The notes under the pieces: generated by a model
Told to the model about the DNA's origin: nothing
Databases searched by the model: none
The model's input: only the letters and a program-made list of their open reading frames with translations
Shown: positions 37,069-52,889 of the stretch, in pieces
How the letters are laid out: each line of letters begins with the position of its first letter
Position numbering within the stretch: position 1 is the stretch's first letter
Source: Armatimonadota bacterium
Lineage (GTDB): Bacteria > Armatimonadota > Fimbriimonadia > Fimbriimonadales > Fimbriimonadaceae
Length of the DNA stretch: 64,000 nt
NCBI GenBank assembly: GCA_018268335.1
Contig: JAFDWT010000043.1
Coordinates: forward strand, 16,450-80,449
Direction of reading: 5' to 3'
Position numbers and translations under genes: made by a program

Positions 37069-38228
37069 TCTCCGTCGACCAGGCCCTGAGCGAAGTCCTT
37101 TCCCGGCGACCTGCACCGGCTTCAGAGCCCGTCGCCCTCAAAGACGCTTTGGGCAGGAAGACATCCAGTGACATCCTGAGTCCGGTCGACCTTCCCCTGT
37201 TCGACAACAGCGCGATGGACGGCTATGCCGTCGGCGCGTGTGACCGAGACAGATGGCAGGTCGTCGGCGAAGTCCGGGCAGGAACCGCAAGGCCCGACCA
37301 ACTCGGCCCCGGCGAGGCCGTCCGTGTCTTCACTGGTGCAAAACTTCCCCCGGGAACTGTTGCTGTCTTGATGCAAGAGGACGCCCACATCGAGGCCGGC
37401 AGTTTGCGCGCCCTCGTGCCAGTCCGGCCTGGTGCCCATGTCCGGTATCGCGGAGAAGAGATTCAGTCAGGAAGTCTGCTCGTCGCAGGTGGGACACGGC
37501 TGACCCCGCCCGTCTGCGCTACCCTTGCCGCGGTGGGTTTGGACACGGTTGAGGTACAGGCGAGGCAGCTGGTCAGCGTCGTCTGCACCGGCGACGAAGT
37601 CGTCGCGCCCGGAGGACACCTCGACGACGGAAAGATCTTTGAATCCAACGGGACGGCCGTCGTATCGTCGCTACAGTCGTTAGGGTTCAAAGCGGATGTG
37701 CGCCGCATGCCTGACGACGAAAGTTCGCTCGCGGTGGCGTTTCGGGTCGTCGCCGAGAAACACGACGTCCTGGTGACGACCGGCGGCGTGTCGGTGGGCG
37801 ACTATGACCATGTCGTTGCGGCTGCTCAATCCGCTGGATTCGACCTGGTCTTCCACGGTGTCGCGATGAAGCCTGGCAAGCCGATCGCGTTCGGCGTGCA
37901 TCCGTCTGGATGCGCCTGGTTTGGCTTGCCTGGCAACCCCATGTCGGCCATGGTCGGCCTCCTGCTGTTTGTCGCTCCTTACTTGGGAGTTCCACTACGG
38001 CGCCTGCGCCTCTCCCTTGCTGAGGAGATCACCCAAGGCGGCGGACGCGAGGAATACGTCCCTGGATGCCTGACCGACAAGGGTCAGGTGGTCGCGACTC
38101 CGACCATCGGGTCTCACGCCCAGAAAGGGCTAGTCGACGCCGACCTTCTCATCCGCGTCCCCATCGGTGCGACACTGGAGACAGGTGACTTCGCCGAAGT
38201 GCTACTGTTGCCCTGGAGGAACGCCTGA
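37065..38228 (+). CDS. moeA: MoeA, molybdopterin molybdenumtransferase
   Basis: A 387-residue MoeA that inserts molybdate into adenylated molybdopterin. It shows LPLFDNSAMDGYAV, the Gly-rich RVFTGAKLPPGTVAVLMQE, CTGDEVVAPG, the MPT-binding TTGGVSVGDYDH and the conserved GLPGNPMSAMVG. The ATG at 37065 overlaps the previous stop codon; in-frame upstream codons would run into the MoaB domain. It is followed directly by moaD. Confidence 0.96.
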   Translation: MISVDQALSEVLSRRPAPASEPVALKDALGRKTSSDILSPVDLPLFDNSAMDGYAVGACDRDRWQVVGEVRAGTARPDQLGPGEAVRVFTGAKLPPGTVAVLMQEDAHIEAGSLRALVPVRPGAHVRYRGEEIQSGSLLVAGGTRLTPPVCATLAAVGLDTVEVQARQLVSVVCTGDEVVAPGGHLDDGKIFESNGTAVVSSLQSLGFKADVRRMPDDESSLAVAFRVVAEKHDVLVTTGGVSVGDYDHVVAAAQSAGFDLVFHGVAMKPGKPIAFGVHPSGCAWFGLPGNPMSAMVGLLLFVAPYLGVPLRRLRLSLAEEITQGGGREEYVPGCLTDKGQVVATPTIGSHAQKGLVDADLLIRVPIGATLETGDFAEVLLLPWRNA

Positions 38229-38468
38229 ATGACTCTCAAAGTGAAGTACTTCGCTGTCCTGCGAGAACGGCGCGGATTGGCTGAAGAGACCGTCGAAGTC
38301 GAACCGACGACTGCCGGCGGATTCACGGCGTGGATCCTGCGCGAGCACAGTTTGGGTCTGCCTCCGGCACTTGTCCGCCTGGCCATGGACGGCACGTTCC
38401 TGGCCGACGACGAGCCCTTGCGCGACGGCGCGGAGGTCGTCCTGATCCCACCAGTGGCCGGAGGATGA
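38229..38468 (+). CDS. moaD: MoaD, molybdopterin synthase sulfur carrier
   Basis: A 79-residue ubiquitin-like protein ending in VAGG. The C-terminal Gly-Gly is adenylated by a MoeB-type enzyme, thiolated, and donates sulfur to cPMP in complex with MoaE. Opening strand KVKYFAVLRERRGL and late segment DGAEVVLIPPVAGG are family-typical. It begins immediately after moeA and overlaps the next gene, which encodes its MoaE partner and its activator in one chain. Confidence 0.93.
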   Translation: MTLKVKYFAVLRERRGLAEETVEVEPTTAGGFTAWILREHSLGLPPALVRLAMDGTFLADDEPLRDGAEVVLIPPVAGG

Positions 38469-39901
38469 GATTCAGCCTGACCCGCGAACCGATCACGGTC
38501 TCCCGCGAGCCTTCGCCCGGAGCTGGTGGGTTTGTCACCTTCGACGGGCGCGTCCGAGACAACGCCGACGGCCAGTCGGTGCTGCGCCTCGAGTACGAGG
38601 CGTTTGACGAAATGGCCCTGGCCGAGGGTCAGAAGCTTGTTGAGGAAGCCGCTGCGCGTTTTGAGTTGGTCGATGCGGACGTCGTCCACCGGCTCGGTCT
38701 ACTCGAGGTCGGTGAGTCAGCAGTAGTCATTACCGTCGCCGCACCCCATCGACGCGAAGCGTTCGGCGCTTGCGAGTGGATCATTGACCAGCTCAAGTGG
38801 CGGGTGCCGATCTGGAAGAAGGAGCACTATGCCTCCGGCGAATCGGAATGGGTCTTGGCTCAGGCCAGCCCAACCGAAGCGACCGACGGCCTCTATGACC
38901 GCCAGATCCGAATGCCGGAGATCGGGGCGGAGGGCCAGCAGAAGATCGGCGCCGCTTCCGTCCTTTTGGTCGGGCTGGGTGGCCTGGGTGCGGCTGTTCT
39001 GCCAGCGTTGGCAGGGGCAGGCGTCGGCCGGCTGGTCTTAGTCGACGCCGACACAGTCGACGCGACGAACCTCCATCGGCAGACGATCTACCGTCGGAGC
39101 GACGTCGGCCGTGGCAAGGCCGAGAGGGCGGCACGGTTCGCCAAGGAACTTAATCCTTCGGTCGATGTCGCCGCAGTGCCCGAGATGCTCGACGCGGCCA
39201 ACGCTGAGCGCCTGGTGCAGAGCTGCGAGATTGTCGTCGACGGCACCGACTCGCTCGCAACCAAATTCTTGCTGAACGCGACGTGCAAACGCCTGGGCAA
39301 GACCCTGGTCACCGCGAGCATCCATGGCTTTGAGGGCCAAGTCTTCACCGTCACACCGGACGGGCCGTGCCTTCAGTGCCTGTTCCCCGAGACCCCGACC
39401 GACGGGTGCGTCGATACCTGCGCCGTGAACGGGACGGTCAGTGTCGTGCCGGCGTTCTTTGGCGTCCTGCAGGCCAACGAGGTGGTCCAGTCGCTCATCG
39501 GGGGACCAGTGCTGATGGATGAGCTCCTTCTTTTTGACCTGGCTGGCAAGTCCATGACAAAGCTCCGTCGATGGCACCGTCCTGGTTGCCGAGGATGCCT
39601 GGGCGAATTTGTTTCGGAGACCCCAGGTTGGGAAGTGGACACCGTCGAAGAGGCCCAGGAGAGACATGCGGACCTTCAGGTCGTCGATATCCGAGAGCTG
39701 GACGAGGAGCCAGACGGGCCGGTGGGTAGCACAAGGATTCCGATGGGAGAATGGGCGGGTCGAGTGCCCGAGGCTCCGACTCTTTTTATTTGCGCCTCGG
39801 GGGCCAGGAGCGGACGGCTTGTCGTGGACATGCGGTCGCGCGGCGTGTCTAGGGTCTATTCGCTTCGCGGCGGCGTCCACGGGATGGTGGAGCGCAATTG
39901 A
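38465..39901 (+). CDS. MoaE-MoeB-rhodanese triple fusion
   Basis: A 478-residue three-domain protein. Residues 1-135 are MoaE, the large subunit of molybdopterin synthase (GFVTFDGRVRDN, LEYEAF, PHRREAF, catalytic-type Lys in PIWKKEHY). Residues 140-375 are a MoeB/ThiF-type E1 enzyme (YDRQIRMPEIG, nucleotide loop VLLVGLGGLGA, zinc pairs CLQC and CRGC). Residues 385-478 are a rhodanese with active-site loop CASGARS. Together these can adenylate MoaD, deliver sulfur to it and use it on cPMP. The ATG at 38465 overlaps the moaD stop; upstream in-frame codons overlap moaD and do not match MoaE. Confidence 0.93.
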   Translation: MRFSLTREPITVSREPSPGAGGFVTFDGRVRDNADGQSVLRLEYEAFDEMALAEGQKLVEEAAARFELVDADVVHRLGLLEVGESAVVITVAAPHRREAFGACEWIIDQLKWRVPIWKKEHYASGESEWVLAQASPTEATDGLYDRQIRMPEIGAEGQQKIGAASVLLVGLGGLGAAVLPALAGAGVGRLVLVDADTVDATNLHRQTIYRRSDVGRGKAERAARFAKELNPSVDVAAVPEMLDAANAERLVQSCEIVVDGTDSLATKFLLNATCKRLGKTLVTASIHGFEGQVFTVTPDGPCLQCLFPETPTDGCVDTCAVNGTVSVVPAFFGVLQANEVVQSLIGGPVLMDELLLFDLAGKSMTKLRRWHRPGCRGCLGEFVSETPGWEVDTVEEAQERHADLQVVDIRELDEEPDGPVGSTRIPMGEWAGRVPEAPTLFICASGARSGRLVVDMRSRGVSRVYSLRGGVHGMVERN

Positions 39902-40623
39902 GCGTCGCCCTCGCCGTCGGTGTGTTCTTTGTGGCCCTGGCCTACAGCCTGGTCGGCCATGGCGGGGCCTCGGGCTACCTCGCTCTCTTGGCCTTCACAT
40001 CTGTCGACCAAAAGACGGCGTCGACGACGGCCCTCGGCCTTAACCTTGTCGTCGCCGGAGTCACCTTCTTCACGTTCCGGCGCGCCAAGCACTTCTCGTG
40101 GCCGCTGGTCTGGCCGTTCTTGGTCGGTTCGGTTCCCTTCGCCTTCCTGGGTGGTTCCCTCAAGATGGAGAGCCGCGTCCAGAGCTGGATCCTCGCCGCG
40201 ACACTGACCTACGCGGCGGTGGCTTTGGTGCTGCCAGTCAAGGCTGGAACCGAAGAAACACGCCCACCCCATCGTGGCATCGCCATTGCGACTGGCGCGG
40301 GCATCGGCTTGCTCTCAGGCATTGTCGGCGTGGGTGGCGGCATTTTCCTTTCGCCGGTCATGATCTTGGCGAAGTGGGCCAAACCGCACGTGGTCGCTAG
40401 CGCGTCGGCGGTTTTTATCTTCGCCAACTCGTTCGCAGGGCTCTTGGCCCGCCCGCCTCGTCACCTCGCCGACGCAGCCGCCTATTGGCCTCTGATCCTA
40501 GCTGGGCTTGTGGGAGCGGTGGCCGGAAGCTACGTCGGTGCGTTCAAGACGTCCGGGCCAGTCATGCGCCGGGCCTTGGGGGCCGTCCTGTTGGTCGCTG
40601 TCTGGAAGCTTGTCGTCAAGTAG
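39898..40623 (+). CDS. TauE/SafE-family membrane transporter
   Basis: A 241-residue protein with about eight membrane helices and the duplicated TauE/SafE pattern (SLVGHGGASGYLAL in the first half, GLLSGIVGVGGGIFLSPVM in the second). The family exports sulfite or other sulfur-containing anions. It starts at TTG overlapping the stop of the rhodanese-containing fusion, so it is co-transcribed with molybdenum-cofactor genes. Clearing sulfur by-products or moving an oxyanion is plausible but not shown. It converges on crp gene 2 with an 8-base overlap. Confidence 0.87.
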   Translation: MSVALAVGVFFVALAYSLVGHGGASGYLALLAFTSVDQKTASTTALGLNLVVAGVTFFTFRRAKHFSWPLVWPFLVGSVPFAFLGGSLKMESRVQSWILAATLTYAAVALVLPVKAGTEETRPPHRGIAIATGAGIGLLSGIVGVGGGIFLSPVMILAKWAKPHVVASASAVFIFANSFAGLLARPPRHLADAAAYWPLILAGLVGAVAGSYVGAFKTSGPVMRRALGAVLLVAVWKLVVK

Positions 40624-41344
40624 AGCCACGGACAGTGGACACCAAAGCGTCCTTGTCCTTCAACAAGATCATCTTCGACTTGGTGGTGACGAGCCCCGAT
40701 TTCTGCCACTTGCTCATCACCCGGATCGTGGACTCGACGGTCGTCCCGGCGATCTCGGCAATGTCCTGCCGAGTCAAAGGCACGGAAATCACGACTCCAC
40801 TGTCCTTGCCGACACCATAGGAGTTCGCGAGCATCAGCAGGACGGCGGCGATGCGCTGGTCGACCTTGCCCGAACTCAGGTGCGAGATCATGTCGTACGA
40901 CTGGCGCAAGCGGTTCGTCGTGCGGCGGACCAGGTGCTCCTTAAGAACCACATTGGTGTTGTAGATCGGCATGATGGACGCCTTCGGCACTTTCAGGTAC
41001 CAGGTGTCGCATACCGCTTTGGCGGTCTGCGGGCAGCCAGTGCCGTCAACGACGCCCAAAAGGCCAAAGATCTGGCCGGGGCCCATGATCTCCGTGGTCA
41101 CCTCTTGCCCGGCAGCTGTGGTCCGAGTCATCTTGACAAACCCAGAGGCGACGATCCCAAAGAAAGTGACACTGCTGCCGTCGAGCCAGATCAACTCAGC
41201 CCGCTCGGCGTGGGCAGGCCGCGAGACGACCGCCAGTTCCTCGATCTGCTCGTCGGTGAGCCCGTTCAGGAGACTACTGCTCCGGATCACCTCCAACTTG
41301 GACGGAGGCTCGTGCATGTGGGCCGATTCTACACCCCCGTCCAT
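40616..41344 (-). CDS. Crp/Fnr-family transcription regulator 2
   Basis: A 242-residue regulator with a cyclic-nucleotide-fold sensor domain (SSVTFFGIVASGFVKMTRT, GQIFGLLGVVDG) and a winged helix (LTRQDIAEIAGTTVESTIRVMSKWQKSGLV). The recognition helix has the E-x3-R spacing of FNR-type proteins. FNR's N-terminal cysteines are absent. An internal ATG nine codons in is an alternative start. It follows the porin-like gene by 15 bp and is probably in its operon, downstream of the operator at 42577-42590, so it may control its own expression. Confidence 0.9.
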   Translation of the reverse strand: MDGGVESAHMHEPPSKLEVIRSSSLLNGLTDEQIEELAVVSRPAHAERAELIWLDGSSVTFFGIVASGFVKMTRTTAAGQEVTTEIMGPGQIFGLLGVVDGTGCPQTAKAVCDTWYLKVPKASIMPIYNTNVVLKEHLVRRTTNRLRQSYDMISHLSSGKVDQRIAAVLLMLANSYGVGKDSGVVISVPLTRQDIAEIAGTTVESTIRVMSKWQKSGLVTTKSKMILLKDKDALVSTVRGST

Positions 41345-41359
41345 CCTGAATCATCTCAC

Positions 41360-42529
41360 CTAAAACTTCTTGGTGATCGCGACGTAGCCCCAGAGTTGCC
41401 GGTTGGACGACCCGACCTGCAGGTTCTGAGGAAACGTGCCTGGCCAGAAGACTCCGGCGCCTGCGGTCAGTGTGTATGTCGTGTCGAACTTGTAGCTGAA
41501 GTCCAGATCGAGTTCGCGGCCCAAGTGGCGGCCCGAAGCCCCGGTGGCGTCCGTATAGGTGCCGCCTGTGCGGGTGTTCACACCGCCACCGACTCCATAC
41601 CAGCTGTCACCAGAGTCATAGAGGCTGAGATCCATCACCTGGACTTTGAAGGTCTCCTTCGGAGACACGTTGAAGCGAAGCCCAGCACCGAGCTGCCTGA
41701 CATTTTGCCATCCGGTCGTGTCCATCAGGCCGACTCGGTCGTGACCGGTCGGATAGAGCTGGTCGAACGTGTTGACAGTGTCCGTGCTCTTGCCGCCACT
41801 GGCGATGTTGGTCTCGAAGAACCCATCGATCTTCTTGGCCACTGGCATCGTGTATCGGGCAAAGCCAGCCCAGGCGCGCACGGCCTTGCCGTCCTCGTGC
41901 CCGATTTGTCCGGCCACTTGATAGTCGACACTGCCCTTGCCGAGCTTGAACTTGCCCTCGCGAGAAAGCGTCAGCCTTCCCTTCTGGACGTTGTTGAGCT
42001 CGTCCGTTTTGACGACGGCCATGGTCAGACCCTGCGAGTCCTTCATCGTGACGCCGCCGAGGAAGAGGTTCTTGTCCGGCACCACGCCGACACCCTGTTT
42101 GGCGACGAACGCGGAGAAGCGGTCCCTCTCGTACGACACCGCGTCGAAAGAGTTTGAGACGTTGTGCCAGTTCAACTCGCCAATGAGGCGTTGCGAGCCG
42201 ACCGCCAACCTTTGCCGTCCCAGCGTCACCTTGGCCTTGTCGACTGAGAACGACGCGTTGGCCTCGACCATGTCGCTCCTGTCGTTCGACGAGTTGCTGC
42301 CCAAGGTCCACACCCAGTCGTGGGCGTACTGATAGACAAACCGTCCAGTGAAATCCTTGCCTTTCAGATTCACGCCGGCCCGATACCGGCCAAAAACGTC
42401 GCCACGGTTGTCTGAAACGTTGCTCAGAAAGTCCTTGTCTGTCCTGCGCTCATAGCGCTCGCGAATCTCAAAGACAGGCTCGACCTTGATCTTCAGCTTC
42501 GCGTCGTCGATGGGAATGTACAGCCACAT
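41360..42529 (-). CDS. Alginate-export-like outer-membrane beta-barrel protein
   Basis: A 389-residue protein of alternating polar and hydrophobic strands ending in Phe, as expected for an outer-membrane barrel. Segments such as VTLGRQRLAVGSQRLIGELNW and NSFDAVSYERDRFSAFVAK fit the alginate-export porin family, members of which occur in denitrification clusters. No signal peptide is visible: the chain starts MWLYIPIDDAKLKIKVEPVF, although GAGGGA sits at a good distance upstream of this ATG. The missing signal is odd for a barrel. It may help nitrate or nitrite cross the outer membrane. Confidence 0.65.
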   Translation of the reverse strand: MWLYIPIDDAKLKIKVEPVFEIRERYERRTDKDFLSNVSDNRGDVFGRYRAGVNLKGKDFTGRFVYQYAHDWVWTLGSNSSNDRSDMVEANASFSVDKAKVTLGRQRLAVGSQRLIGELNWHNVSNSFDAVSYERDRFSAFVAKQGVGVVPDKNLFLGGVTMKDSQGLTMAVVKTDELNNVQKGRLTLSREGKFKLGKGSVDYQVAGQIGHEDGKAVRAWAGFARYTMPVAKKIDGFFETNIASGGKSTDTVNTFDQLYPTGHDRVGLMDTTGWQNVRQLGAGLRFNVSPKETFKVQVMDLSLYDSGDSWYGVGGGVNTRTGGTYTDATGASGRHLGRELDLDFSYKFDTTYTLTAGAGVFWPGTFPQNLQVGSSNRQLWGYVAITKKF

Positions 42530-42682: not shown

Positions 42683-43009
42683 CTAGGGCGTGTTCACACT
42701 TCGAGGATGAATCTGGACTTCCTGAAGTCTGCTTGGGCATCCTCGCGCAGCCTATATCCCGCCGCTCGTCACTCCTGCGCAGGCAGGAGTCTAGCTCGGG
42801 ACAAACCGAGTCCGTTTCCGCTGTGCCCAAGTCGGAACGGACTGTGCCAGGCCGGAGCGCTGGACCCCTGCCTGCGCAGGGGTGACGGGTGGTAGTTGGC
42901 ACTCGCCCCTCAGTCAATAGATCAAGATGGGACTACCCGACTAGCCCTGTGCGACGCACCGCTCCGACGCCTGGCTTCTCGTACCTGCCGAAATGTGAAC
43001 ACGCCCTAG
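42683..43009. mobile_element. MITE-like element with 21-bp terminal inverted repeats
   Basis: The ends are 21-base inverted repeats (left 42683-42703, right 42989-43009) differing at one position. Each end carries CTAG, which can be read as a 4-bp target duplication of the YTAR type used by IS5-like elements; the core would then be 42687-43005, 319 bp. There is no transposase and no believable gene inside. Two copies of a 26-30-base palindromic repeat face each other inside (about 42769-42795 and 42861-42886). The right-hand CTAG supplies the TAG stop codon of the neighbouring cytochrome gene. Confidence 0.72.
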
Positions 43010-44289
43010 TTTCGAGAACCGAATTGCGGCACAGATTGGCTGAGGATGTCGAGTGCCGCCTTCTTGTCTTCGCTGGAGAACGACGCGAGGTCTAGTGTCT
43101 GGTCACTGCCAGACAAAACTTGGCGCAGACGCTCGAACACCCGTGCCTTGGCTTTTGCCGGCAAGCCCTCGATGCTCTTGGAATAGACCAGCGGGCTGCA
43201 GGGATAGCGGAACAACCTGGTCTTGAGATTGAGGTCAGACAGCCGGCGTCCGTCTTTATCACTCGGTGCGGATTGCGATAGATGGGCCGTAAATTGGCTT
43301 GTGCCCGCAATTGGAGAAGTCAGAGTCGGCTCGCCGACATGCAGCAAGGCCTTCACCAGTGGTTCACAAGCGTACGCGACCCGATCGTTGAGTTGCTGCT
43401 CGATATGCTTCGCATCAAACTTGAGGTCAGTCAAGTTCTTGGCCTCAGCGAGAGCGCGGCGCGTCAGTTGACCGGCTCGAGTGGCCAAATTGACAACTGT
43501 CAATTGGTGTTCAAAGACCATGAGCGCGACGATGTCCGAGTGGCCGGTCAGATAGTCCTTGACATCGCAATAGCTGGCCAAGTCCTTCTTGTTCGCACCT
43601 CTTTCCCGGTCGAGGCCATCGTTGGCACCGCTGCCCCTTGCGACTTCGTTCCCCATGTGCCTCATGCTGCCATGGGTGCCGGTGACGTACCAGCCGCCCC
43701 ATCTCTCCTCCATTGGACTCGACGCCGTTGTCTTGTAGGATCCAAACGCCAGCCTGGAGCTGCCATCAGGTGCGACAAACACAGACCTCGCCAAAAGACC
43801 AGGCACGTTGCCAGTGGCGGGGGTGAAGTGGCACTGAAAGCAGTCGTCGGTTTTGCGCTGGACATCCGGCCGGTCGCTCTTTTGGTTGGCGAGAATGTAG
43901 AACACCGGCCCGACTTCCGGGTCGATGCTCATGATCTCGATGTACGGTGCGCCTGGGATCCAGCCGATGGAGTTCTCCGCATTGAAATAGACCGCCCTTG
44001 GGTTGCTTGGTGAGATGTACTGTGATTGCAGACTGGTCTTCGAGAACACCAGCAGCTGCGACGAAGGCGGGACGCCCAGCTTGTCCAGCAGGGACTTGAG
44101 GTATCCCTGCTTGGGCTCATAGTCGAGCGTGGCCTTCCCCGACTTCATGTCTTGCACTAGTCGTGCGACCGGGTCTGCCACATCACTTTTGTAGAACTCG
44201 CTTTGTCCTGCTTGATCTTGCAAGGGACTAGCTGCCAACAAGGCGTACGGCACAAGGCAGAGGCCAGCGAGCAGGGTCTTTCTTGTCAT
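43006..44289 (-). CDS. Exported mono-haem cytochrome c-like protein
   Basis: A 427-residue protein with a signal peptide (about 5-22) and one haem c site, CFQCH (Cys150, Cys153, His154). Further on is ERWGGWYVTGTHGSMRHMGN, a block I associate with a family of exported haem proteins of unknown function; the recall is from pattern, not a search. No other haem site is visible. I chose the ATG at 44289; an in-frame TTG ten codons upstream is less likely. It ends the molybdoenzyme operon, 72 bp after narK 2, so periplasmic electron transfer is likely. Its stop codon lies in the terminal CTAG of the MITE. Confidence 0.75.
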   Translation of the reverse strand: MTRKTLLAGLCLVPYALLAASPLQDQAGQSEFYKSDVADPVARLVQDMKSGKATLDYEPKQGYLKSLLDKLGVPPSSQLLVFSKTSLQSQYISPSNPRAVYFNAENSIGWIPGAPYIEIMSIDPEVGPVFYILANQKSDRPDVQRKTDDCFQCHFTPATGNVPGLLARSVFVAPDGSSRLAFGSYKTTASSPMEERWGGWYVTGTHGSMRHMGNEVARGSGANDGLDRERGANKKDLASYCDVKDYLTGHSDIVALMVFEHQLTVVNLATRAGQLTRRALAEAKNLTDLKFDAKHIEQQLNDRVAYACEPLVKALLHVGEPTLTSPIAGTSQFTAHLSQSAPSDKDGRRLSDLNLKTRLFRYPCSPLVYSKSIEGLPAKAKARVFERLRQVLSGSDQTLDLASFSSEDKKAALDILSQSVPQFGSRN

Positions 44290-44361
44290 GGCGAGTGGCT
44301 TGCCCCTAAACGTCCGCAACCGCGCGTCAATGAGGCAGCCTCTGGAAACAGTTTGCCCAAC

Positions 44362-45858
44362 TCACGCTCCTTCGCCAGCGACCAGGCCGGGCATCTCCAT
44401 CTTCTGGTTTTTTGTCATACGCAAGATGACCAAGTGCATCCAGGTCAGACAGACCACACTCAGCACGCCCAGGAACAACCAGCACGAAGTCCAGAGTCCT
44501 GTCCACTTGAGCAAGTAGCCGAAGAGGATCGGACAGAAGAAGCCGCCTAGCCCGCCGATGACACCGACGATGCCACCGACGACGCCCACGTCATGCGGGA
44601 AGTACTCCGGGATGTGCTTGTAGACCGCCGCCTTGCCGACGCCCATCATGATGCCGGCCAGGAAGACGAGTGCGGTGAAAACCGCGATGTTGGCCTGGAA
44701 GTAGATGTGGGTCACACCTCGGGCGAGCACTTCTTTGCGCTTGACTTTTTGACCGACATCGACCGCTGGCTCGTGCCAGGTGTCGATCTTCGGCCACACG
44801 AGCGCGCCTTCAGGGAGGCTGCTCTGACGGTTCTCTACAGCAGGTGTGAGCTTATAAGCCTTGTCCCCGACCTTGACCTCACCCGCTGACACAGCGGTCA
44901 CTTGCCCTGGCTTGTCGGCCATGACGCCCTCGCCAGGGGACTGGATGTCCATGCGGGGAGCGACCAACAAGGCGAAAAGGACGCAGCAAGACCCCAGCAC
45001 CCAGTACATCGTCGACCTCGCGCCGAATTTGTCCGACGCCCATCCACCCAGCGCTCGGATGACTCCAGATGGGAAGCTGAACACTGCCGCCAAGAGGCCG
45101 GCGGTGGCCAAATTCAGGCCATAGACGTTCAGATAGTAAGGAACGAGCCACTGCGACAAGGCGACGAACGCCCCGAAGACGAGGAAGTAATACAGGCCGA
45201 ACCGCCAGACACGCACGTCTTGGAGCGGTTTGAGCATCTGGGCTGCCGTCTTGGAAGCGGCTCCCTCGTCCTTCTTGTTCGTGGTCAGCAAGGCGAAAAT
45301 GACCGCCATCGCGATCAGGCAGTAGGCGTACAGCTGCGGCAGCTTGCGCCAACCTTCTACGTCCGCGCCGCCGTGAGTGAAGGACGCCAACAACTGCGGC
45401 CCGAAGACGGTGGTCAAGGCCGAGCCCGCGTTGCCCATGCCGAACACACCAAGGGCCGTGCCCTGGCTCTGCTTGGGGAACCAGACTGACGAATAGGCGA
45501 TGCCGACGGCGAACGAAGCCCCCGACATGCCGAACATCAAGCCACCAAACAGGAAGTGCGCAAACGTGGTGGCGAAGCTGGTCAGGAAAACGGAAACGCC
45601 AGCGAAGAGCATGACCGCGATGTAGACCGGTTTGCCGCCATACCGTTCGGTGAGCATCCCCACCGGGAGGCGGAACAAGGACCCCGTCAGAACCGGGATG
45701 CCCAAAAGCCACCCCATCTGCGATTTGTCGATCTGCAGCACCTTGTTATCGACGAGGAAGGTGACCAGCACCCCGTACATCGTCCAGACGGCGAAGCAGA
45801 CCGTGAACGCGACCGTGTTGACGATCAGGGTCCGGTTGGCTGCCGCCCGCCCGGTCAT
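44362..45858 (-). CDS. NarK-type nitrate/nitrite transporter 2 with extra soluble insert
   Basis: A 498-residue MFS transporter of the NarK type (FGGLMFGMSGASFAVGIAYSS, GVFGMGNAGSALTT, and the late repeat GIVGVIGGLGGFF). Between helices, at about residues 302-386, lies an 85-residue soluble insert rich in beta strands. Its end, PAVDVGQKVKRKEVLARG, looks like a barrel-sandwich (lipoyl/biotinyl-like) hairpin but without a modifiable MKM lysine. I do not know this insert from NarK. The ATG overlaps the cytochrome b stop by four bases, so it is translated with the respiratory complex. Confidence 0.9.
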   Translation of the reverse strand: MTGRAAANRTLIVNTVAFTVCFAVWTMYGVLVTFLVDNKVLQIDKSQMGWLLGIPVLTGSLFRLPVGMLTERYGGKPVYIAVMLFAGVSVFLTSFATTFAHFLFGGLMFGMSGASFAVGIAYSSVWFPKQSQGTALGVFGMGNAGSALTTVFGPQLLASFTHGGADVEGWRKLPQLYAYCLIAMAVIFALLTTNKKDEGAASKTAAQMLKPLQDVRVWRFGLYYFLVFGAFVALSQWLVPYYLNVYGLNLATAGLLAAVFSFPSGVIRALGGWASDKFGARSTMYWVLGSCCVLFALLVAPRMDIQSPGEGVMADKPGQVTAVSAGEVKVGDKAYKLTPAVENRQSSLPEGALVWPKIDTWHEPAVDVGQKVKRKEVLARGVTHIYFQANIAVFTALVFLAGIMMGVGKAAVYKHIPEYFPHDVGVVGGIVGVIGGLGGFFCPILFGYLLKWTGLWTSCWLFLGVLSVVCLTWMHLVILRMTKNQKMEMPGLVAGEGA

Positions 45859-47045
45859 CTCATCGCCTCCACGTTGGTCGGCGCCTTCTTATGCTCGGGC
45901 GGCGTGTCCAGAAGGCCCTTGAGGGTCAGTAGTCCGATCAACAGGATCACGGCCATGCCCATCATGATCACCCACTGCCTCTTGCCCGGATGGCGCGACT
46001 TCGAACGGTCGAGCCATGGCAGAGCGAACATGCCGATGGTGATCAGGCCCGGGATGATCGCAGTCGCCACGACCTCGAAGCCGGTCGGCATGATTTTCAG
46101 GAGCTCATAAAGTCCCAGGAAGTACCACTCCGGCCGAGGGCTGAAGTCGGTGCCGGTCGGGTCTGCGATCGCTTCGAGTGACGGCGGCAAGCCAACAGCC
46201 AGGTAGACGAGCAGACCGACACCGACGACGAGCACGATGGCGTCCTTGAACAGCTGGTCGGGATAGAACGGCACCGGTTTGCCTTTTTGCGGCACTACCG
46301 GCCCGGCGATGTGGTGTTTGCGCACCAGGAACATGTGCAACCCAGCCACGACCAACAGCGACGCCGGCAGCAGCATCACGTGTAGCGAGAAGAACCGCGT
46401 GAGTGTCAGAGCCCCGACCTCTTCGCCACCCCTAATCAACACCAACATCATGTGGCCGACCACCGGGATCGTCGCCGCGATGCGCGTGCCGACAACCGTC
46501 GCCCAGTACGCCTTCTGGTCCCACGGCAGCAGATAGCCGGTGAAGGAGAAGCCGAGGATGATCTGGAAGATGATCACGCCGACGATCCAGGTCAGTTCGC
46601 GCGGCTTCTTGTAGGAGCCCCAGAAGAAGACCCTCAGCAAGTGGAGCGCCGTCACGATCACGATGACCGTGCTGCCCCAGACGTGCAGGCCACGGACAAA
46701 CGTTCCGGCACCGACCTCGTAGGTGATGTGCTTGACGCTGGCGTGGGCGCCTTCGGCGCTGGGTGTATAAAACATCGCCAAGGCAAAGCCGGTGACGAAC
46801 TGGAAGATGAGCAGCGTCATCAGCAGGTTGCCGAGCGTCTGCCACCAGCCGACACCGGGCGGCATCGGCTCGTCGAGGTTCTTGCGGACAAAGCCGTACC
46901 ACCCCAGCCGGAGATCCATCCAATCCTTGAAGCTCGGTCGGTCGATCTCGACCCGCTCGGCTTTGGATGCTTCACGAGGCTGGTCGACGCGGACTTCGGG
47001 CGACAGCGTCGGCGCTTCTTTGGGTTCGTAAGTCTTGCGGGACAT
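45855..47045 (-). CDS. Cytochrome b of a Rieske/cytochrome b complex
   Basis: A 396-residue, single-chain cytochrome b with N-terminal (b6-like) and C-terminal (subunit IV-like) parts. Haem ligands are in LHVWGSTVIVIVTALHLLRV and SLHVMLLPASLLVVAGLH, and the quinol-site motif is PEWYF. About 45 hydrophilic residues precede the first helix. It starts two bases after the Rieske gene. In this operon it would oxidise quinol, passing electrons to the Rieske protein and onward. A Rieske plus cytochrome b pair beside a nitrate reductase is known from haloarchaeal nar operons. Confidence 0.94.
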   Translation of the reverse strand: MSRKTYEPKEAPTLSPEVRVDQPREASKAERVEIDRPSFKDWMDLRLGWYGFVRKNLDEPMPPGVGWWQTLGNLLMTLLIFQFVTGFALAMFYTPSAEGAHASVKHITYEVGAGTFVRGLHVWGSTVIVIVTALHLLRVFFWGSYKKPRELTWIVGVIIFQIILGFSFTGYLLPWDQKAYWATVVGTRIAATIPVVGHMMLVLIRGGEEVGALTLTRFFSLHVMLLPASLLVVAGLHMFLVRKHHIAGPVVPQKGKPVPFYPDQLFKDAIVLVVGVGLLVYLAVGLPPSLEAIADPTGTDFSPRPEWYFLGLYELLKIMPTGFEVVATAIIPGLITIGMFALPWLDRSKSRHPGKRQWVIMMGMAVILLIGLLTLKGLLDTPPEHKKAPTNVEAMR

Positions 47046-47047
47046 GG

Positions 47048-47542
47048 CTAGACCTCCCTCTCCACCCAGATCTTGCCGTTCTCGACCTTCACTGGATGAC
47101 GTTCAAGCGGCTTCGGCGGCGGGCCGGACTTGTTCGTCCCGTCGTCGTTGAAGACGCCACCGTGGCAGGGGCAGACGAAGCGGTGTTTGTCGGTTTGGTA
47201 CCGCACACGGCAGCCCAAGTGGGTGCACGCGGGGTCGATGGCCATGACCCCGGCTTCGTCCCGGCGGACGTAGACCGTGTACTTGCGCTCGGTCTCGTGG
47301 TAGCCGTCGACGATCTTCATCGAGAAGTTGACCTCTTTAACTTCGCCCGGGGCGATCTGGTCGTCGGGCATCAGTTCGACCCACACCTTCTTCCGTTTGG
47401 TCTGCAAGGGCGACGTGACAAACTCCGCCACCGGGAGGCCGACCACGGCGATCAGTCCGAGGTTGATGACCCCGACGACGACACCCATCATCTTTCTGCG
47501 CGACATCAGGGCTTCTGCGTCTTGTTCTTCGTTGTGAGGCAT
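47048..47542 (-). CDS. Rieske iron-sulfur protein
   Basis: A 164-residue protein with one N-terminal membrane anchor (about 20-40) and the 2Fe-2S motifs CTHLGC and CPCHGG. It is followed by a short GPPPKPLERHPV loop, as in bc1/b6f Rieske proteins. The two Cys and two His ligands are all present. It takes electrons from quinol at the cytochrome b Qo site. The next gene, two bases on, is cytochrome b. Its acceptor is unknown; the cytochrome c fused to the NarI-like subunit is a candidate. Confidence 0.95.
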   Translation of the reverse strand: MPHNEEQDAEALMSRRKMMGVVVGVINLGLIAVVGLPVAEFVTSPLQTKRKKVWVELMPDDQIAPGEVKEVNFSMKIVDGYHETERKYTVYVRRDEAGVMAIDPACTHLGCRVRYQTDKHRFVCPCHGGVFNDDGTNKSGPPPKPLERHPVKVENGKIWVEREV

Positions 47543-47551
47543 GGTGGTCTC

Positions 47552-48682
47552 CTAGGGGTAGTAGCGGATGGTCACGGAGCCTTCGTATTCGGGCCCCAGT
47601 TGGCTGAGCACGCTCTCGGCGATCGCCACCGACTTGTGGTGGCGGCCCGGGGAAGGCTCTCTCTCGAATCCAATATCGACGCCCGCCGCGATGACGGCGT
47701 CGGTCAGTCGGGTCATGGCCGCCAAGGCCGGCGCGACATAGGCGTGCTGGAACCTGGTGAACGGCGCTGTGACGATCAGCAGCAGGACGGCGGCCAGGTG
47801 GTACAGATAGACCGTCATCACCCAATCGTGGGCTCCTGCGCGCTTGAGCAACACCACCAAGAAGCCGCTGAACGCCACATGGACAAGGAAGTTCACAAAG
47901 GCAAAGTCGCGTCCGAGCGTCAGGCCGTTGTCGATGTACTCGTCCTTCTTGTAGCGGTACATCACATAGCTGACGCCGATGAACACGGCGACACCGGAAA
48001 GGAGCGGCAGCATCTTGAGCGGGTCGGTCAGGGGCAGTTGGCTGCGCTGCGGGTTGTTGACAGCGATCAGGATGTCAGCGATGATCAGGCCGCAGAACCC
48101 GTACAGCATCAAGCCGTGCATCAGCCACCGGCGCTTGTCGTGCTTGTACAGCGACTGCACCAGGAACCCGTCCAGGAACAGGCTCTTGATCGTGATCCCG
48201 GCGACCTTGCCCCAGCCCAACTTGGCTAAGGAGGGCATGAGTCGAGGCAGCCCAGCCGCCCTGAGCCACTTGCCCAGGCTGACCATCGCCATCACGAATG
48301 CTAAGCCAAACGCGAACATGAAGATGCGCGACACGCTCTTGGGCGAGAGGAACTGGCCGACTTTGTAGGCGACCGGAATCTCCTCCGGAACCCAAGGCTT
48401 GGCTTTGACTTCCGCGTAGAGCAGCGGGAGGTCGGCGTCAGAGATGTCGTCCTGCTTGATCGCCGGCATCATGCCTTTGCCCTTGCGGACGATGTCCATG
48501 AACTCCTTCTCTTCCACCTTGGTCTGGGCCAGCGGTGGGCCAAGGCCGCCCATAGCCGTCTGGCCGTGGCAGCCGGTGCAGCTCGAGGTCGAGAAGACGT
48601 CCTTGGCGTGGGCTTGGGCCGGACTCTGGGCAAAGCCTAACGAGACGACACACATGGCGAGAATGGTGGTGAGGACTCTCAT
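47552..48682 (-). CDS. Cytochrome c - NarI-like membrane cytochrome b fusion
   Basis: A 376-residue protein with a signal peptide (about 1-19), an N-terminal cytochrome c domain with CTGCH (Cys35, Cys38, His39) and Met candidates near GMMPAIK. A membrane domain of five to six helices follows. His residues in LMHGLMLYGF, LVHVAFSGF and YLYHLAAV suit haem b ligation, as in NarI or DsrM-type subunits. It would collect electrons at the outer face and/or oxidise quinol and pass them to the ferredoxin subunit. Its ATG overlaps the preceding stop by four bases. Confidence 0.82.
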   Translation of the reverse strand: MRVLTTILAMCVVSLGFAQSPAQAHAKDVFSTSSCTGCHGQTAMGGLGPPLAQTKVEEKEFMDIVRKGKGMMPAIKQDDISDADLPLLYAEVKAKPWVPEEIPVAYKVGQFLSPKSVSRIFMFAFGLAFVMAMVSLGKWLRAAGLPRLMPSLAKLGWGKVAGITIKSLFLDGFLVQSLYKHDKRRWLMHGLMLYGFCGLIIADILIAVNNPQRSQLPLTDPLKMLPLLSGVAVFIGVSYVMYRYKKDEYIDNGLTLGRDFAFVNFLVHVAFSGFLVVLLKRAGAHDWVMTVYLYHLAAVLLLIVTAPFTRFQHAYVAPALAAMTRLTDAVIAAGVDIGFEREPSPGRHHKSVAIAESVLSQLGPEYEGSVTIRYYP

Positions 48683-49404
48683 GCTGACCCCTTGGACTTC
48701 TGAGGCCGTTGGGCTTCAGCGGTCTTTGCCTCGCCGATCCCGTCGGTCTGACCGAGCGTCTGTGGAATTTGGGAGGCCATCGGGCCGAGGTAGCAGCCTG
48801 CGGGCTTCGTCCCGGCCTCGGGCAACAGGTGGAACGGCGACCGGCCCGTCGACTCCTTCTGCTCGGCGACATAGGTCGAGATCGGGCTCTCTGGGTCGTC
48901 CAGGTCGCCAAAGATGCGGGCGGTGGTCGGACAAGCGACGACACAAGCCGGGTCGAGCCCATTGTCGACCCGCTGGGCGCAGTACGTGCACTTGCGGGCG
49001 ACGTTGGGCTTCAGGCGTTTCTTGACGAAGTCCTTCTCGTAGGGCTCCTCCGCGGTCAAGTACCAGTCGTCTTCCGCCTGGTTGAGGATGATGTTGCCGT
49101 AAGGGCAAGCCGAGACGCACGCGCCGGTGCCTTTGCACCGCTCTTGGTCGACCAGGACGATCCCGTCGCCCCGGCGGACTATAGCCTTGTTGGGGCACGA
49201 CTTGAGGCACGGCGCGTCGTCGCAGTGGTTGCAGAGGACGGGGATGTACAGCCGTTTGACGTTGGGGTACGTGCCGACCTCGACATTGATCACGCGAGCG
49301 AAGAACGTGTCCACCGGCGTGCCGTTCTCCTGTTTGCAGGCCAGCGTGCAGGCGTCGCAGCCGATGCACCTGGTCAGGTCGATGAGCATCGACAGACGTG
49401 CCAT
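48679..49404 (-). CDS. Four-cluster ferredoxin electron-transfer subunit
   Basis: A 241-residue NarH/DmsB-type subunit with four complete cysteine motifs: CIGCDACTLAC, CNHCDDAPCLKSCP, CKGTGACVSACP and CTYCAQR...PACVVACP. All sixteen ligands are cysteine. This differs from NarH, where one motif has Trp and binds a 3Fe-4S cluster. I chose the ATG at 49404, which overlaps the stop of the molybdoenzyme gene; an upstream in-frame start would overlap it by about 200 bases. No signal peptide, so it is cytoplasmic. It wires the catalytic subunit to the membrane cytochrome. Confidence 0.94.
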   Translation of the reverse strand: MARLSMLIDLTRCIGCDACTLACKQENGTPVDTFFARVINVEVGTYPNVKRLYIPVLCNHCDDAPCLKSCPNKAIVRRGDGIVLVDQERCKGTGACVSACPYGNIILNQAEDDWYLTAEEPYEKDFVKKRLKPNVARKCTYCAQRVDNGLDPACVVACPTTARIFGDLDDPESPISTYVAEQKESTGRSPFHLLPEAGTKPAGCYLGPMASQIPQTLGQTDGIGEAKTAEAQRPQKSKGSA

Positions 49405-51845
49405 TATTTGACCCTCCTGACATCGACCCGCGTGTCTTTCCAGTGCTGACCCGGGGCATACACAGCGGGCAAGTAGTACGCCTCGTGGGTCGGTTTGACC
49501 TTTTGATAGGTGTGCACGGAGTGGTATTTCCCGGCTCCCAGGTACCTGTCCCACCACCCGTGGTCCACGCAGACGACGCCGGGCTTGATCGTCTCGGTCA
49601 CCAGCGCCCACAGCTTGTAGGCACCGTAGTCGTTGTAAATCTCCACGGGGTCTCCGTCATGGATGCCTCGTGCGGCCGCGTCGCGCGGGTTGATCTCCAC
49701 CACCGGCTTACGGTTGAGGTTCCGGAGGAACGGGTTGTTGCAGTGGGTGGAGTGGACCCGCCACTTCGAGTGCGGCGTGACAATCGCCAGCGGCATCTCC
49801 TGGGCGGGCTGAGGCAAGTGCTCGAACGCCCAGTGGTAGGTGGGGATCGTCTCGCCCATCTTCTGGAAGATCTCTTCCTCCTTGTAGAACTCCATCCGGC
49901 CGGTCTTCAAGAATTCCCGTTGCGCCCCCTCGGGGAACGGATAGGCTCGTGGCGGGAAGAGTTTGTCTTCGTGGAACTGCTCGTCGCAGCCGCACTCAGG
50001 ATCATGGACTTTGAGCCGGACCGGCCCCTTTTGGAGCATTACTAGGGAGATGCCCTCGACTTCCTTGCCGCCGCCTTTCAGCATCATGTCAATGGCCTCC
50101 TCCTCTGAGAAGTCCATGTCTTTGAGCTTGGTGGGGTCGACCCGGCGGATCAGTTCCTTGGCGACCCACATCTCGGTACGACTGTCGTATTGCGGTGGGA
50201 CGACCTCTTGTTGGATTTGCAGGTATGGGTGGCAACTGGTTCCCACCAGGTCGACCTTTTCCCAGAACGTCGGCGCGGGAAGGACGACGTCGGCGTATTC
50301 GCAGGTCGGTGTCATCGAGAAATCAGTGACGACGAACAGGTCCAGCGCGTCGATAGCGTCCTTCATCGGTGCCGAGAACTCAGTGACCAGCGGGTTCGCG
50401 TGGCTGACAAATAGAGCCTTGAACCCGTTCTTGGGGAACTTGATCTTCGGGTGAATCGTCTCCGTCGGCTTGCCGAGGACGAAGTAGTGCATCGGCACCC
50501 CATTCGGCCGCTTGCCGCCTGGGAACCACCACGGCGAAACGTCGAGCCGGAAGTGGTGCTGGCCCGAGTAGATAGAGACCGATTCGCCCGGCTTTCCATG
50601 GGCGCCGACCAGAGTCGCGAGAAGCAAGACGGCGCGGATCGTCAAGTCGCCGTGGAGCCGGTGGTTGATGCCCATGCCGATGATGATCGAGCTGGGCCGC
50701 TCGGTGGCATAGCGGATAGCGACTTGGCGGATCGTCTCGCCGGGGATGTCGCAAATCTTTGCTACATTCTCCAGCGCATACTCCGGTCGCATGATCTCGT
50801 CTTCGAGCAGTTCATAGACCGGCGTGACCGTAGTCGAACTGCCGTCGGCCAGCTGGACTTGGCGCTTGCCGTTGAGCGCGTAGCGCGCTCCTTCCGGCAA
50901 CTTGAGCGTTTCGGCTGGCAGCTTGGCCAGGCGGTCGGACTCTTCGTCCCAGACGACGAACTCCATGTCCGTCCCCATGCCGACGTCCGAGGCCCGCAGC
51001 CTCATCCCGTTGTCGTCGCGCACCAAGGTGCAGAAGTCGGAGTACTTCTGGACAAACTCCCGGTCGACCAGTTGGTTCTCGATGACGACCCGGCACATCG
51101 CCAGGGCGAGCGCGCCGTCTGTGCCTGGGTTGACCGGGAGCCACTGGTCGGCGCCTTTGGCGGTCTGGCTGCAACGCGGGTCGATGCTGATGATCTGGCA
51201 GTTGTTGCGTTGCTTGGCGTAGGTGGTCAGGAACTTGGCGTCGGGGATGCGGGTCTGAAAGACGTTGCTGGACCACAGGATCGCGGTCTTGCAGTGGCCC
51301 CAGCTCTTGGTCTCGCACTCCACACAGTCGATGCCGACCGTCTGGGTGAAGCCCATGCTGATGTCGCCGTTGAAATCGTAGGCGGTCGCGAACGACATGC
51401 CGAGCAACGCCGCCATCCGGACTTGGGCGCCTTTCTGCACATACCCGGTGCCGACCACTTGGTTGAAGAGCAGCATCGACTCTGGCCCATGCTCGTCGCT
51501 GATCCTGCGCATGTGCCCGGCGATATAGTCGAGGGCTTCGTCCCAGGTCGCCTCGCGCCACTTGTTCTCGCCGCGCTCACCAGTCCGGATCAGCGGCGTG
51601 TGGATGCGGTCGGGGCCGTAGATGATGTGGGTCATCGACATGCCGCGCAGACAGCCGCGCGGGTTGTATTCCTGGCACGGATAGTCCGCCGCCGGCTTCA
51701 GATCGACGATGACGTCGTCGACGACGGTGGCCAACCAGCCGCACGCACCGGTGCAATTGGGGCTGTCTGTCGTCCGGACGACCCGTGTCCGCTCTGTCGG
51801 TGCTTTTGTCGGGCCTCTGCCGGGTACCGCGTGTCGCGTTGCCAT
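49404..51845 (-). CDS. Molybdopterin oxidoreductase, NarG-like catalytic subunit
   Basis: An 813-residue DMSO-reductase-family enzyme. The N-terminal cluster site is NCTGACGW (Cys31, Cys35) with NPRGCLRG (Cys65); the residue four before Cys31 is Asp27 where NarG has His. The probable Mo ligand is Asp161 in DFNGDIS, aligning with NarG's YDWYCDLP, which places it in type II. WSSNVFQTRIPDAKFLT is NarG-like. There is no Tat signal, so it faces the cytoplasm. It is much shorter than NarG (about 1240). I chose ATG 51845 (GGAG seven bases upstream); ATG 51875 is possible. Nitrate reduction is likely; nitrite oxidation or another oxyanion cannot be excluded. Confidence 0.88.
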   Translation of the reverse strand: MATRHAVPGRGPTKAPTERTRVVRTTDSPNCTGACGWLATVVDDVIVDLKPAADYPCQEYNPRGCLRGMSMTHIIYGPDRIHTPLIRTGERGENKWREATWDEALDYIAGHMRRISDEHGPESMLLFNQVVGTGYVQKGAQVRMAALLGMSFATAYDFNGDISMGFTQTVGIDCVECETKSWGHCKTAILWSSNVFQTRIPDAKFLTTYAKQRNNCQIISIDPRCSQTAKGADQWLPVNPGTDGALALAMCRVVIENQLVDREFVQKYSDFCTLVRDDNGMRLRASDVGMGTDMEFVVWDEESDRLAKLPAETLKLPEGARYALNGKRQVQLADGSSTTVTPVYELLEDEIMRPEYALENVAKICDIPGETIRQVAIRYATERPSSIIIGMGINHRLHGDLTIRAVLLLATLVGAHGKPGESVSIYSGQHHFRLDVSPWWFPGGKRPNGVPMHYFVLGKPTETIHPKIKFPKNGFKALFVSHANPLVTEFSAPMKDAIDALDLFVVTDFSMTPTCEYADVVLPAPTFWEKVDLVGTSCHPYLQIQQEVVPPQYDSRTEMWVAKELIRRVDPTKLKDMDFSEEEAIDMMLKGGGKEVEGISLVMLQKGPVRLKVHDPECGCDEQFHEDKLFPPRAYPFPEGAQREFLKTGRMEFYKEEEIFQKMGETIPTYHWAFEHLPQPAQEMPLAIVTPHSKWRVHSTHCNNPFLRNLNRKPVVEINPRDAAARGIHDGDPVEIYNDYGAYKLWALVTETIKPGVVCVDHGWWDRYLGAGKYHSVHTYQKVKPTHEAYYLPAVYAPGQHWKDTRVDVRRVK

Positions 51846-51909
51846 TGCTCGCTCCGGGCGTGTGGCCACGCCCATGCGGCAAGTGTCGAGCCTAAGCTAG
51901 AGACAAACA

Positions 51910-51955: not shown

Positions 51956-52558
51956 TCACGGATTATCTGCTGCCAGAAGGGTGGATAGCTCTTCAGGTGT
52001 GTTGACTCCTGTCACCCATTCGGGACGAATCCCGAGGGCAGCAAGACCGTCCCCATCCAAGCGCCGCACGTTGAGCCGAGAAATCCAGTCCATCACCCGC
52101 CCCGACGCCAAGGCGGCGGGCAGCGAATGCCAGGCGGCACGACTGTAGAGGGCGCACAGGGGCTGGTCTCTGCCGCTCACCACTGGAACCACCGCGTCGT
52201 AGTCGCCGATCTCGCCGATAAATTGCTGGGCGACGGATGCCGTGAACAAGGGCACGTCGCACGACAGGACGAAGATGAACTCGGCTACCGGCGTAAAGCG
52301 CGACAGGGCCGCTAGCGGCCCAGCGTACAAGGCGGCGTCATGGACGAAACTGCATCCATCTATCGGCTCCCGGCCCAGGACAGTGACGGGCCAGCCAGCC
52401 TGGATCAGCCTCTCCGCTTGCTGGTCGGCCAACGGCTTTCCTTCTACCAGCATGGCGGCCTTGTCGAAACCCATCCGTCGGCTGGCCCCGCCGGTCAGGA
52501 TCACCGCTTCGCGGTTATGACCATTGTCATAGGTTGTTTGCCCTTGGCCTGCGTACAC
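51956..52558 (-). CDS. mobA: MobA, molybdenum cofactor guanylyltransferase
   Basis: Links GMP to molybdenum cofactor to form the bis-MGD needed by DMSO-reductase-family enzymes such as the one next door. The GTP-binding signature is ILTGGASRRMGFDKA and the metal site DVPLF (in SCDVPLF). The start is unclear: GTG 52558 adds an N-terminus before the usual first strand, while GTG 52504 would begin exactly at the first strand and leave the palindrome at 52516-52531 outside the gene. Neither has a good Shine-Dalgarno. Both are on the minus strand, downstream of the molybdoenzyme promoter region but read away from it. Confidence 0.88.
   Translation of the reverse strand: MYAGQGQTTYDNGHNREAVILTGGASRRMGFDKAAMLVEGKPLADQQAERLIQAGWPVTVLGREPIDGCSFVHDAALYAGPLAALSRFTPVAEFIFVLSCDVPLFTASVAQQFIGEIGDYDAVVPVVSGRDQPLCALYSRAAWHSLPAALASGRVMDWISRLNVRRLDGDGLAALGIRPEWVTGVNTPEELSTLLAADNP
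52516..52531. promoter_or_regulatory. Fourth ATGA-N6-TCAT palindrome, at the mobA 5' end
   Basis: TATGA-CCATTG-TCATA, a perfect 5-6-5 dyad. It lies between the two candidate mobA starts and about 45 bp before the divergent AhpD-like gene. It matches the core and spacing of the other three sites but lacks TGCG in the spacer. It could control mobA (if translation starts at 52504) or the AhpD-like gene. Confidence 0.5.
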
Positions 52559-52568
52559 TGACAACAGT

Positions 52569-52889
52569 ATGGCGAGACTCCCCAAGCGCTACGTGAGGTT
52601 CCACGAGCAGTTCCCCGCTGTGGGCAAGGCTTACGAAGCCTATGGCGAGGCCGTCGCCCAGGCCGGGCCGCTTGATGAGAAGACCCGGTGCCTAGTCAAG
52701 CTAGGCATGTCCATCGCCGCGCGCATGGAAGGCGCCGCCAAGAGCCACGCTCACAAGGCCCTGCAGGCTGGGGCCAGTGCCGAAGAAATTCGCCACGTGG
52801 CCCTATTGGCCGCACCGACCATCGGCTTCCCCAACATGATGGCCGGCCTCGGTTGGGTCGACGAGATCCTCATCGAGCACGCAAGCTAG
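52569..52889 (+). CDS. Carboxymuconolactone decarboxylase/AhpD-like protein
   Basis: A 106-residue all-helical protein of the CMD family (segments [43 protein letters not shown]). AhpD-type members have a CxxC; here the site reads KSHAH, so the peroxidase-partner chemistry is missing and only the His is kept. Function unknown. It is divergent from mobA with the operator-like palindrome between them. Confidence 0.85.

Follow-up and report, generated by a model that had tools for sequence, protein, structure and literature searches.

We analyzed a stretch of 64,000 nucleotides from an Armatimonadota bacterium of the family Fimbriimonadaceae (assembly GCA_018268335.1, contig JAFDWT010000043.1, positions 16,450 to 80,449 of the forward strand), in the following called the window, in which the gene of a molybdenum-dependent catalytic subunit shares an operon with the genes of a Rieske protein and a cytochrome b. 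The host genome is a 3.09 Mb draft of 126 contigs, and the window lies on the contig labelled C64. A first-pass annotation made from the sequence alone had described a seven-gene operon on the minus strand, and all seven genes are indeed present where it had placed them (Table 1). From the catalytic gene to the mono-heme gene the intergenic gaps amount, in order, to -1, -4, +9, +2, -4 and +42 base pairs, in agreement with the tight spacing described up to narK. As an operon of seven genes the description nevertheless reaches too far. Five genes form a conserved unit, encoding the catalytic subunit, an Fe-S subunit, a fusion of cytochrome c and a NarI-like subunit, the Rieske protein and cytochrome b, while NarK is an associated gene and the mono-heme gene has no homolog in any other compared locus. 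Hence, the mono-heme gene is probably not part of the unit, and its product, which is an exported protein, was on the same ground ruled out as cytochrome c1.

Table 1. Genes of the operon and of its surroundings, in window coordinates.
Feature	Position	Strand	Remarks
Catalytic subunit, molybdenum-bis-pyranopterin guanine dinucleotide (Mo-bis-PGD) type	49404..51845	minus	813 residues; alternative in-frame ATG at 51875 gives 823 residues
Four-cluster Fe-S subunit	48679..49404	minus	241 residues, 15 invariant Cys
Signal sequence, mono-heme cytochrome c domain and five-helix NarI/QmoC-like b-type subunit	47552..48682	minus	
Rieske protein	47048..47542	minus	ligand motifs CTHLGC...CPCHGG
Full-length cytochrome b	45855..47045	minus	b6 and subunit IV parts in one chain; PEWY, conserved heme His
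NarK-type nitrate/nitrite transporter	44362..45858	minus	associated gene, outside the predicted complex
Mono-heme (FQCHF) protein	43006..44319	minus	no Pfam or NCBIfam family
Alginate_exp-type outer-membrane porin	41360..42529	minus	recurs as neighbor in several loci
Crp/Fnr-family regulator	40616..41344	minus	recurs as neighbor
MobA (molybdenum cofactor guanylyltransferase)	51956..52585	minus	directly upstream of the catalytic gene
MoaA	35180-36169	plus	cofactor gene
MoaC/MoaB	36124-37068	plus	cofactor gene
MoeA-like	36990-38228	plus	cofactor gene; name given by eye from the sequence
MoaE-MoeB/ThiF fusion	38330-39901	plus	cofactor gene

Distribution of the five-gene unit

Our searches covered the Armatimonadota (291 genomes) and a single phylum of the Bacillota, complemented by one pattern scan; L- and G-numbers denote the loci and genomes compared in this analysis. 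Contig scans and whole-genome searches detected the catalytic subunit in 37 of the 291 Armatimonadota genomes with 71-85% identity (65% for a fragmentary copy in G117), and the five-gene set is common to nearly all of these 37 genomes. Wherever the contig is long enough, gene order and strand are constant across metagenome-assembled genomes and the complete chromosome CP054189.1, with few exceptions such as L027. For a window taken from a draft of 126 contigs, chance adjacency or a chimeric assembly might be considered, but the order recurs unchanged in numerous independent assemblies and in a complete chromosome. Together with the perfect co-distribution described below, this synteny refutes the explanation and leaves it a negligible probability. 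An apparent fusion of the Rieske protein with cytochrome b in L096 turned out to be an overlapping alternative reading frame.

In a set of 61 related genomes, 22 encode both the catalytic subunit and this cytochrome b, and the remaining 39 encode neither (Fisher p = 5e-17; as the genomes are related, the counts in this and the later Fisher test do not represent independent events). The further 15 carriers in the phylum all possess a homolog of the cytochrome b, 14 of them at 62-82% identity. In G001, which belongs to the same genus as the host, catalytic subunit, cytochrome b and NarK are all absent. COX1 is encoded in 59 of the 61 genomes, compared to 22 for this cytochrome b, which argues that the latter neither serves oxygen respiration nor acts as a general complex III. 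The only COX1 gene of the host shares its contig with genes for NrfD, cytochrome c, SCO and COX2, which together would constitute an alternative-complex-III-like cluster. Together with the perfect co-distribution, these observations counter the possibility that the Rieske and cytochrome b genes are an ordinary bc1 locus lying next to the molybdoenzyme by chance.

Cofactor sites and topology of the encoded subunits

The catalytic subunit had been termed NarG-like, which is appropriate in a loose sense only. It reaches 227 bits against the NCBIfam narG model TIGR01580, far below the cut-off of 1084, and its best family match, the DMSO reductase type II family TIGR03479, is likewise below the cut-off (470 versus 984.75 bits). 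The phylogeny of the catalytic subunit, computed with IQ-TREE, places it in a new clade separate from NarG: the Armatimonadota proteins are sister to those of Desulfosporosinus (support 100/100), followed by a Bacillota clade anchored by NrfD (99/98), while NarG, haloarchaeal NarG, PcrA, ClrA and a Bacillota group exported by twin-arginine translocation (Tat) fall into the opposite clade (100/99). As the tree was rooted arbitrarily and contains long branches, the deep branching order is uncertain. The likely site of the FS0 cluster reads D27-x3-C31-x3-C35-x29-C65, in which Asp27 takes the place of NarG His49, so that the His-x3-Cys signature of type II enzymes is absent; the NrfD group has a Cys at this position. 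The conserved Asp of an NGD motif (around residue 161) aligns with the corresponding Asp of NarG and PcrA and is predicted to coordinate Mo. Inspection of N-termini revealed no Tat motif, as already noted in the first-pass annotation, and the operon of the window encodes no gamma subunit like that of ethylbenzene dehydrogenase (EBDH). Annotation pipelines that search for narG would overlook this enzyme.

Two further groups of molybdoenzymes were encountered. In the NrfD-anchored sister clade (L077-L090, Bacillota), an NrfD-type protein takes the place of NarI, the third Fe-S motif has all four Cys and the molybdoenzyme genes often adjoin a second molybdoenzyme gene of ~735 codons. Loci L100-L105 of Armatimonadota encode molybdoenzymes of ~1160-1360 residues with an N-terminal C(S/A)PN(C/D)THxCR motif, which to our eyes recalls NxrA of nitrite oxidizers, and in G018, G027, G036 and G044 these occur alongside the unit.

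The third motif of the Fe-S subunit, CxGTGAC, carries Thr (Ala in some copies) at the position of the second Cys, where NrfD-linked relatives have Cys and NarH has Trp. Hence, one [3Fe-4S] cluster is predicted as in NarH and ClrB, and the subunit would conform to the NarH-type pattern of three [4Fe-4S] sites and one [3Fe-4S] site. Clusters of this [3Fe-4S] kind go along with high-potential acceptors. In the Rieske protein and cytochrome b, family alignments show conservation of the Rieske ligands CxHxxC/CxxH, of the PEWY motif and of the four heme His residues of cytochrome b.

All Armatimonadota copies compared carry an N-terminal cytochrome c domain with a CxxCH motif and a Met pair on the b-type subunit (CTGCH and Met71/72 in the window), and this domain is present twice in L023, L024, L029 and L039. 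Ten loci (L023, L026, L029-L032, L040, L093, L095, L096) have a single reading frame that runs from the Fe-S subunit over a hydrophobic segment and the cytochrome c domain to the five helices. As the attachment of c-heme takes place outside the membrane, this fusion places the Fe-S part inside. The numbers of lysine plus arginine residues agree with this orientation, with 9.5 and 3.6 in the two inner loops as opposed to 0.9 and 0 in the loops outside. Owing to the gene fusion and the co-inheritance, it is strongly suggested that the gene products form one complex. In G117 (L094:7728-11869), the catalytic, Fe-S, cytochrome c and NarI-like parts seemingly make up one chain, the first part of which is in a separate frame, possibly by a sequencing frameshift.

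Across 21 loci, the gene fused to NarI is the only CxxCH gene within the unit or within 3.5 kb of it (the copy of L025 was hidden by an overlapping frame in this count and became visible in another comparison). Hence, the bc module has no cytochrome c1, cytochrome f or equivalent of its own. Such a module depends on a c-type acceptor, and the sole acceptor encoded is carried by the NarI-like subunit, a point that the first-pass annotation had overlooked. Alternatively, the NarI-like subunit might still oxidize menaquinol directly as in NarGHI, with the Rieske protein and cytochrome b as a co-regulated second branch feeding the c-heme or other periplasmic carriers. The five-helix NarI-type subunit with its conserved heme ligands would fit such an arrangement, as would the Desulfosporosinus relative, which has neither the c domain nor an adjacent bc module and presumably oxidizes quinol. 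Against it stand the lack of any other c-type acceptor in or beside the unit in the 21 loci, the c-heme being covalently part of the NarI-like subunit, and the strict co-inheritance, so that we regard direct quinol oxidation as rather unlikely and favor an electron transfer from the Rieske protein to the fused c-heme.

Nitrate as candidate substrate and the predicted electron route

Besides the cofactor genes, the surroundings of the operon comprise two regulators of the Crp/Fnr family, a porin of the Alginate_exp type and an NnrS-like protein. The second regulator, of the Crp family, and the membrane protein, which is weakly NnrS-like and recurs beside the unit in many loci, are located at 31639-33682. 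No FNR-like palindrome was found upstream of the operon, and the two detected within the mono-heme gene are at about chance level.

The presence of NarK, mentioned in the first-pass annotation for the window, extends to all carriers among the 61 genomes: a close NarK homolog is found in 22 of 22 carriers compared to 7 of 39 non-carriers (p = 7e-11). The NarK of the window (44362-45858) has a soluble domain inserted at about residues 305-390, before the last helices. Six of the seven NarK-bearing non-carriers were examined, each of which has a molybdoenzyme of ~727 residues near NarK, in four of the six amid the same cofactor genes. NasC is the best family for two such enzymes of ~730 residues, of which one belongs to a non-carrier and the other to a carrier. 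This looks like the replacement of one nitrate reductase by another within a nitrate island. Near the Nas-like enzyme or the unit, we also observed a pair of a Rieske protein and a four-cluster ferredoxin (L117:11-1120, L114:11112-11993, L022:8339-9022, L093:5742-6883), possibly an electron donor module of assimilatory nitrate reduction. In Desulfosporosinus, which holds the nearest relative detected outside Armatimonadota, Hcp and hemerythrin are among the neighbors of the cluster. We counted this in favor of nitrate, as we did the NarH-like [3Fe-4S] signature and the NrfA of the host. Taken together, nitrate is probably the substrate of the enzyme. The same wiring could serve another oxyanion such as chlorate, perchlorate, selenate or iodate, as the nearest solved structure chain to the catalytic subunit is that of perchlorate reductase and the best plasmid relative adjoins a chlorite dismutase-family gene. 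Given NarK in every one of the 22 carriers and the Nas-like enzyme that takes the place of the unit in similar islands, we consider this very unlikely.

The catalytic-subunit query yielded no further molybdoenzyme match in the host genome, in which neither a NirK match nor a NIR_SIR domain was found, while NrfA is encoded. This combination suggests that the host reduces nitrate via nitrite to ammonium.

We deem it likely that the unit encodes a respiratory nitrate reductase that represents a new clade and is hard-wired to a quinol-oxidizing Rieske/cytochrome b module of its own. Menaquinone is used in Armatimonadota. Menaquinol would be oxidized at the outer quinol-oxidizing (Qo) site of cytochrome b, one electron passing to the b hemes in a Q cycle and the other via the Rieske centre to the outer c-heme of the NarI-like subunit, which would stand in for cytochrome c1. 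From the c-heme, electrons would cross the membrane inward over heme b of the NarI-like helices and the cytoplasmic Fe-S subunit to the Mo site, where nitrate imported by NarK would be reduced to nitrite. The nitrite would probably leave by NarK and then be converted to ammonium by NrfA of the host. In textbook inward-facing nitrate reductases, electrons are taken straight from quinol and complex III is bypassed. The electron crossing from outside to inside proposed here would instead add to the Q cycle, giving about twice the charge per nitrate as compared to direct quinol oxidation by NarGHI, and if true, a higher energy yield would be predicted for nitrate respiration in Armatimonadota. The initial proposal of a quinol:nitrate complex that has a bc-type module to itself and an active site facing inward is thus the best-supported reading given the co-distribution, the fusions and the lack of a Tat signal, although as a whole it is a prediction from sequence. 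About evenly balanced is, in our judgment, a stricter version, according to which menaquinol:nitrate electron transfer takes place in an obligate supercomplex. Its NarI-type arm would no longer bind quinol but would act across the membrane like a cytochrome c oxidase, the c-heme would take the place of cytochrome c1, and the passage of electrons from the outer face to the inner nitrate site would provide a second coupling step following the Q cycle.

Electrons might also flow in the opposite direction, either during nitrite oxidation as in Nitrobacter or by way of the c-heme, which would serve NarI as an outlet towards reductases in the periplasm, a role proposed for NarC of Thermus. The inner catalytic site and outer cytochrome c are shared with the nitrite oxidoreductase of Nitrobacter and with NarCGHI of Thermus (PMC7694296), and the host possesses NrfA. 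For an outlet, however, a dedicated quinol-oxidizing bc module would be pointless, a Nas-like reductase occupies the same kind of NarK/cofactor island in related genomes, and Thermus represses complex III under nitrate (PMC7694296). The genomic context of NarK and Nas-like islands argues for reduction rather than nitrite oxidation of the Nitrobacter type, and we judge outward electron flow to be quite improbable.

Several observations weigh against the proposed inward route from a dedicated bc module. H189, H295 and H313 are invariant in the five-helix part and the fourth NarI His has no equivalent. We take H189 and H313 to correspond to the inner heme ligands of NarI, so that only one clear b-heme pair is kept, and since the outer H295 is without an obvious partner, the route from c- to b-heme is a tentative one. 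His268 in the fourth transmembrane helix was rejected as a ligand, as it is not conserved (N in L023, W in L030 and L032, L or other residues in Desulfosporosinus). The AlphaFold model of the cytochrome c-NarI subunit is too weak for ligand geometry (predicted local distance difference test 70, predicted template modelling score 0.58), and the E-values of its fold matches exceed 0.1, although NarI comes second with a probability of 1.0. Moreover, a gene for a NarJ/TorD-type chaperone is absent among the operon genes, the position and strand of NarK vary among loci such that it is not always adjacent to the unit, and G117 has the c domain while its nearest cytochrome b is only 49% identical and located on another contig.

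Comparison with known systems

The first-pass annotation knew of no bacterial example with this gene set, and we likewise found neither a characterized complex of this composition nor a description of the gene set in Armatimonadota, within the open-access literature and a partial sampling of genomes. Two candidate precedents were discarded: the enzyme in a study on dissimilatory nitrate reduction to ammonium in Acididesulfobacillus is a canonical NarG (PMC10949509), and the Deferribacter paper contains no such complex (PMC6896113).

With NarGHI of E. coli, the unit shares a five-helix b-type anchor, a nearby NarK and, by prediction, inner Mo and Fe-S subunits and a [3Fe-4S] cluster, but NarG of E. 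coli comprises 1247 residues and belongs to the other clade, and its system has NarJ and neither a c-heme nor a Rieske/cytochrome b module. The three-gene cluster of Desulfosporosinus (L034, L037) resembles the unit in its sister catalytic subunit (54-55%), its Fe-S subunit and its NarI-like anchor, yet the cytochrome c domain is missing and genes for a Rieske protein and cytochrome b do not adjoin it. Thus, the c domain and the bc module accompany each other, with G117 as a partial exception, and the two systems may form a natural before/after pair for the rewiring of quinol enzymes to cytochrome c.

The haloarchaeal nar operon, seen here in Haloferax larsenii (L109; PMC4683180), also combines Rieske and cytochrome b genes with a type II molybdoenzyme and an Fe-S subunit, in line with the precedent named earlier. 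In contrast to the unit, the haloarchaeal enzyme faces outward after Tat export, has an EBDH-like gamma subunit, no NarI and no c-heme fusion, and its catalytic subunit belongs to the other clade. In two Bacillota genomes (G403, L091:6151-14491; G577, L092:6748-13113), a type II molybdoenzyme, a diheme cytochrome c, cytochrome b and a Rieske protein lie in one cluster. A Tat motif was read in both and an EBDH-like gamma subunit was seen in L091, and judged by these features the clusters represent a bacterial version of the outward-facing haloarchaeal design.

Thermus thermophilus NarCGHI is likewise an inward-facing enzyme with an outer c-type cytochrome on NarI, but NarC is a separate diheme protein, the operon holds no bc module, complex III is repressed and NarG is canonical (PMC7694296). 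Closest in its proposed electron path is Nar1 of Streptomyces coelicolor, which copurifies with the bcc-aa3 supercomplex (PMC7931247). There, too, an inward-facing nitrate reductase was proposed to be fed from bc c-hemes into heme b of NarI with the same gain in proton translocation; with potentials of -75 mV for menaquinol and +430 mV for nitrate, four protons per electron pair were judged feasible (PMC7931247). Streptomyces uses a canonical NarGHI, unlinked genes and a supercomplex shared with the oxidase, whereas the Armatimonadota unit has a dedicated bc module in the operon and the c-heme fused to the NarI-like subunit. The finding that Nar1 needs the bcc-aa3 supercomplex raised the question whether a bc complex can feed an inward-facing nitrate reductase, and the Armatimonadota, in which evolution apparently fixed such wiring within a single operon and, through fusion, in part within a single chain, would offer a clean test system. 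Each element of the predicted complex, the inward-facing enzyme, the outer c-heme on the anchor and the dedicated bc module in the operon, is thus known from one of these systems, and within the open-access literature and the genomes sampled we know of no described case that combines all three.

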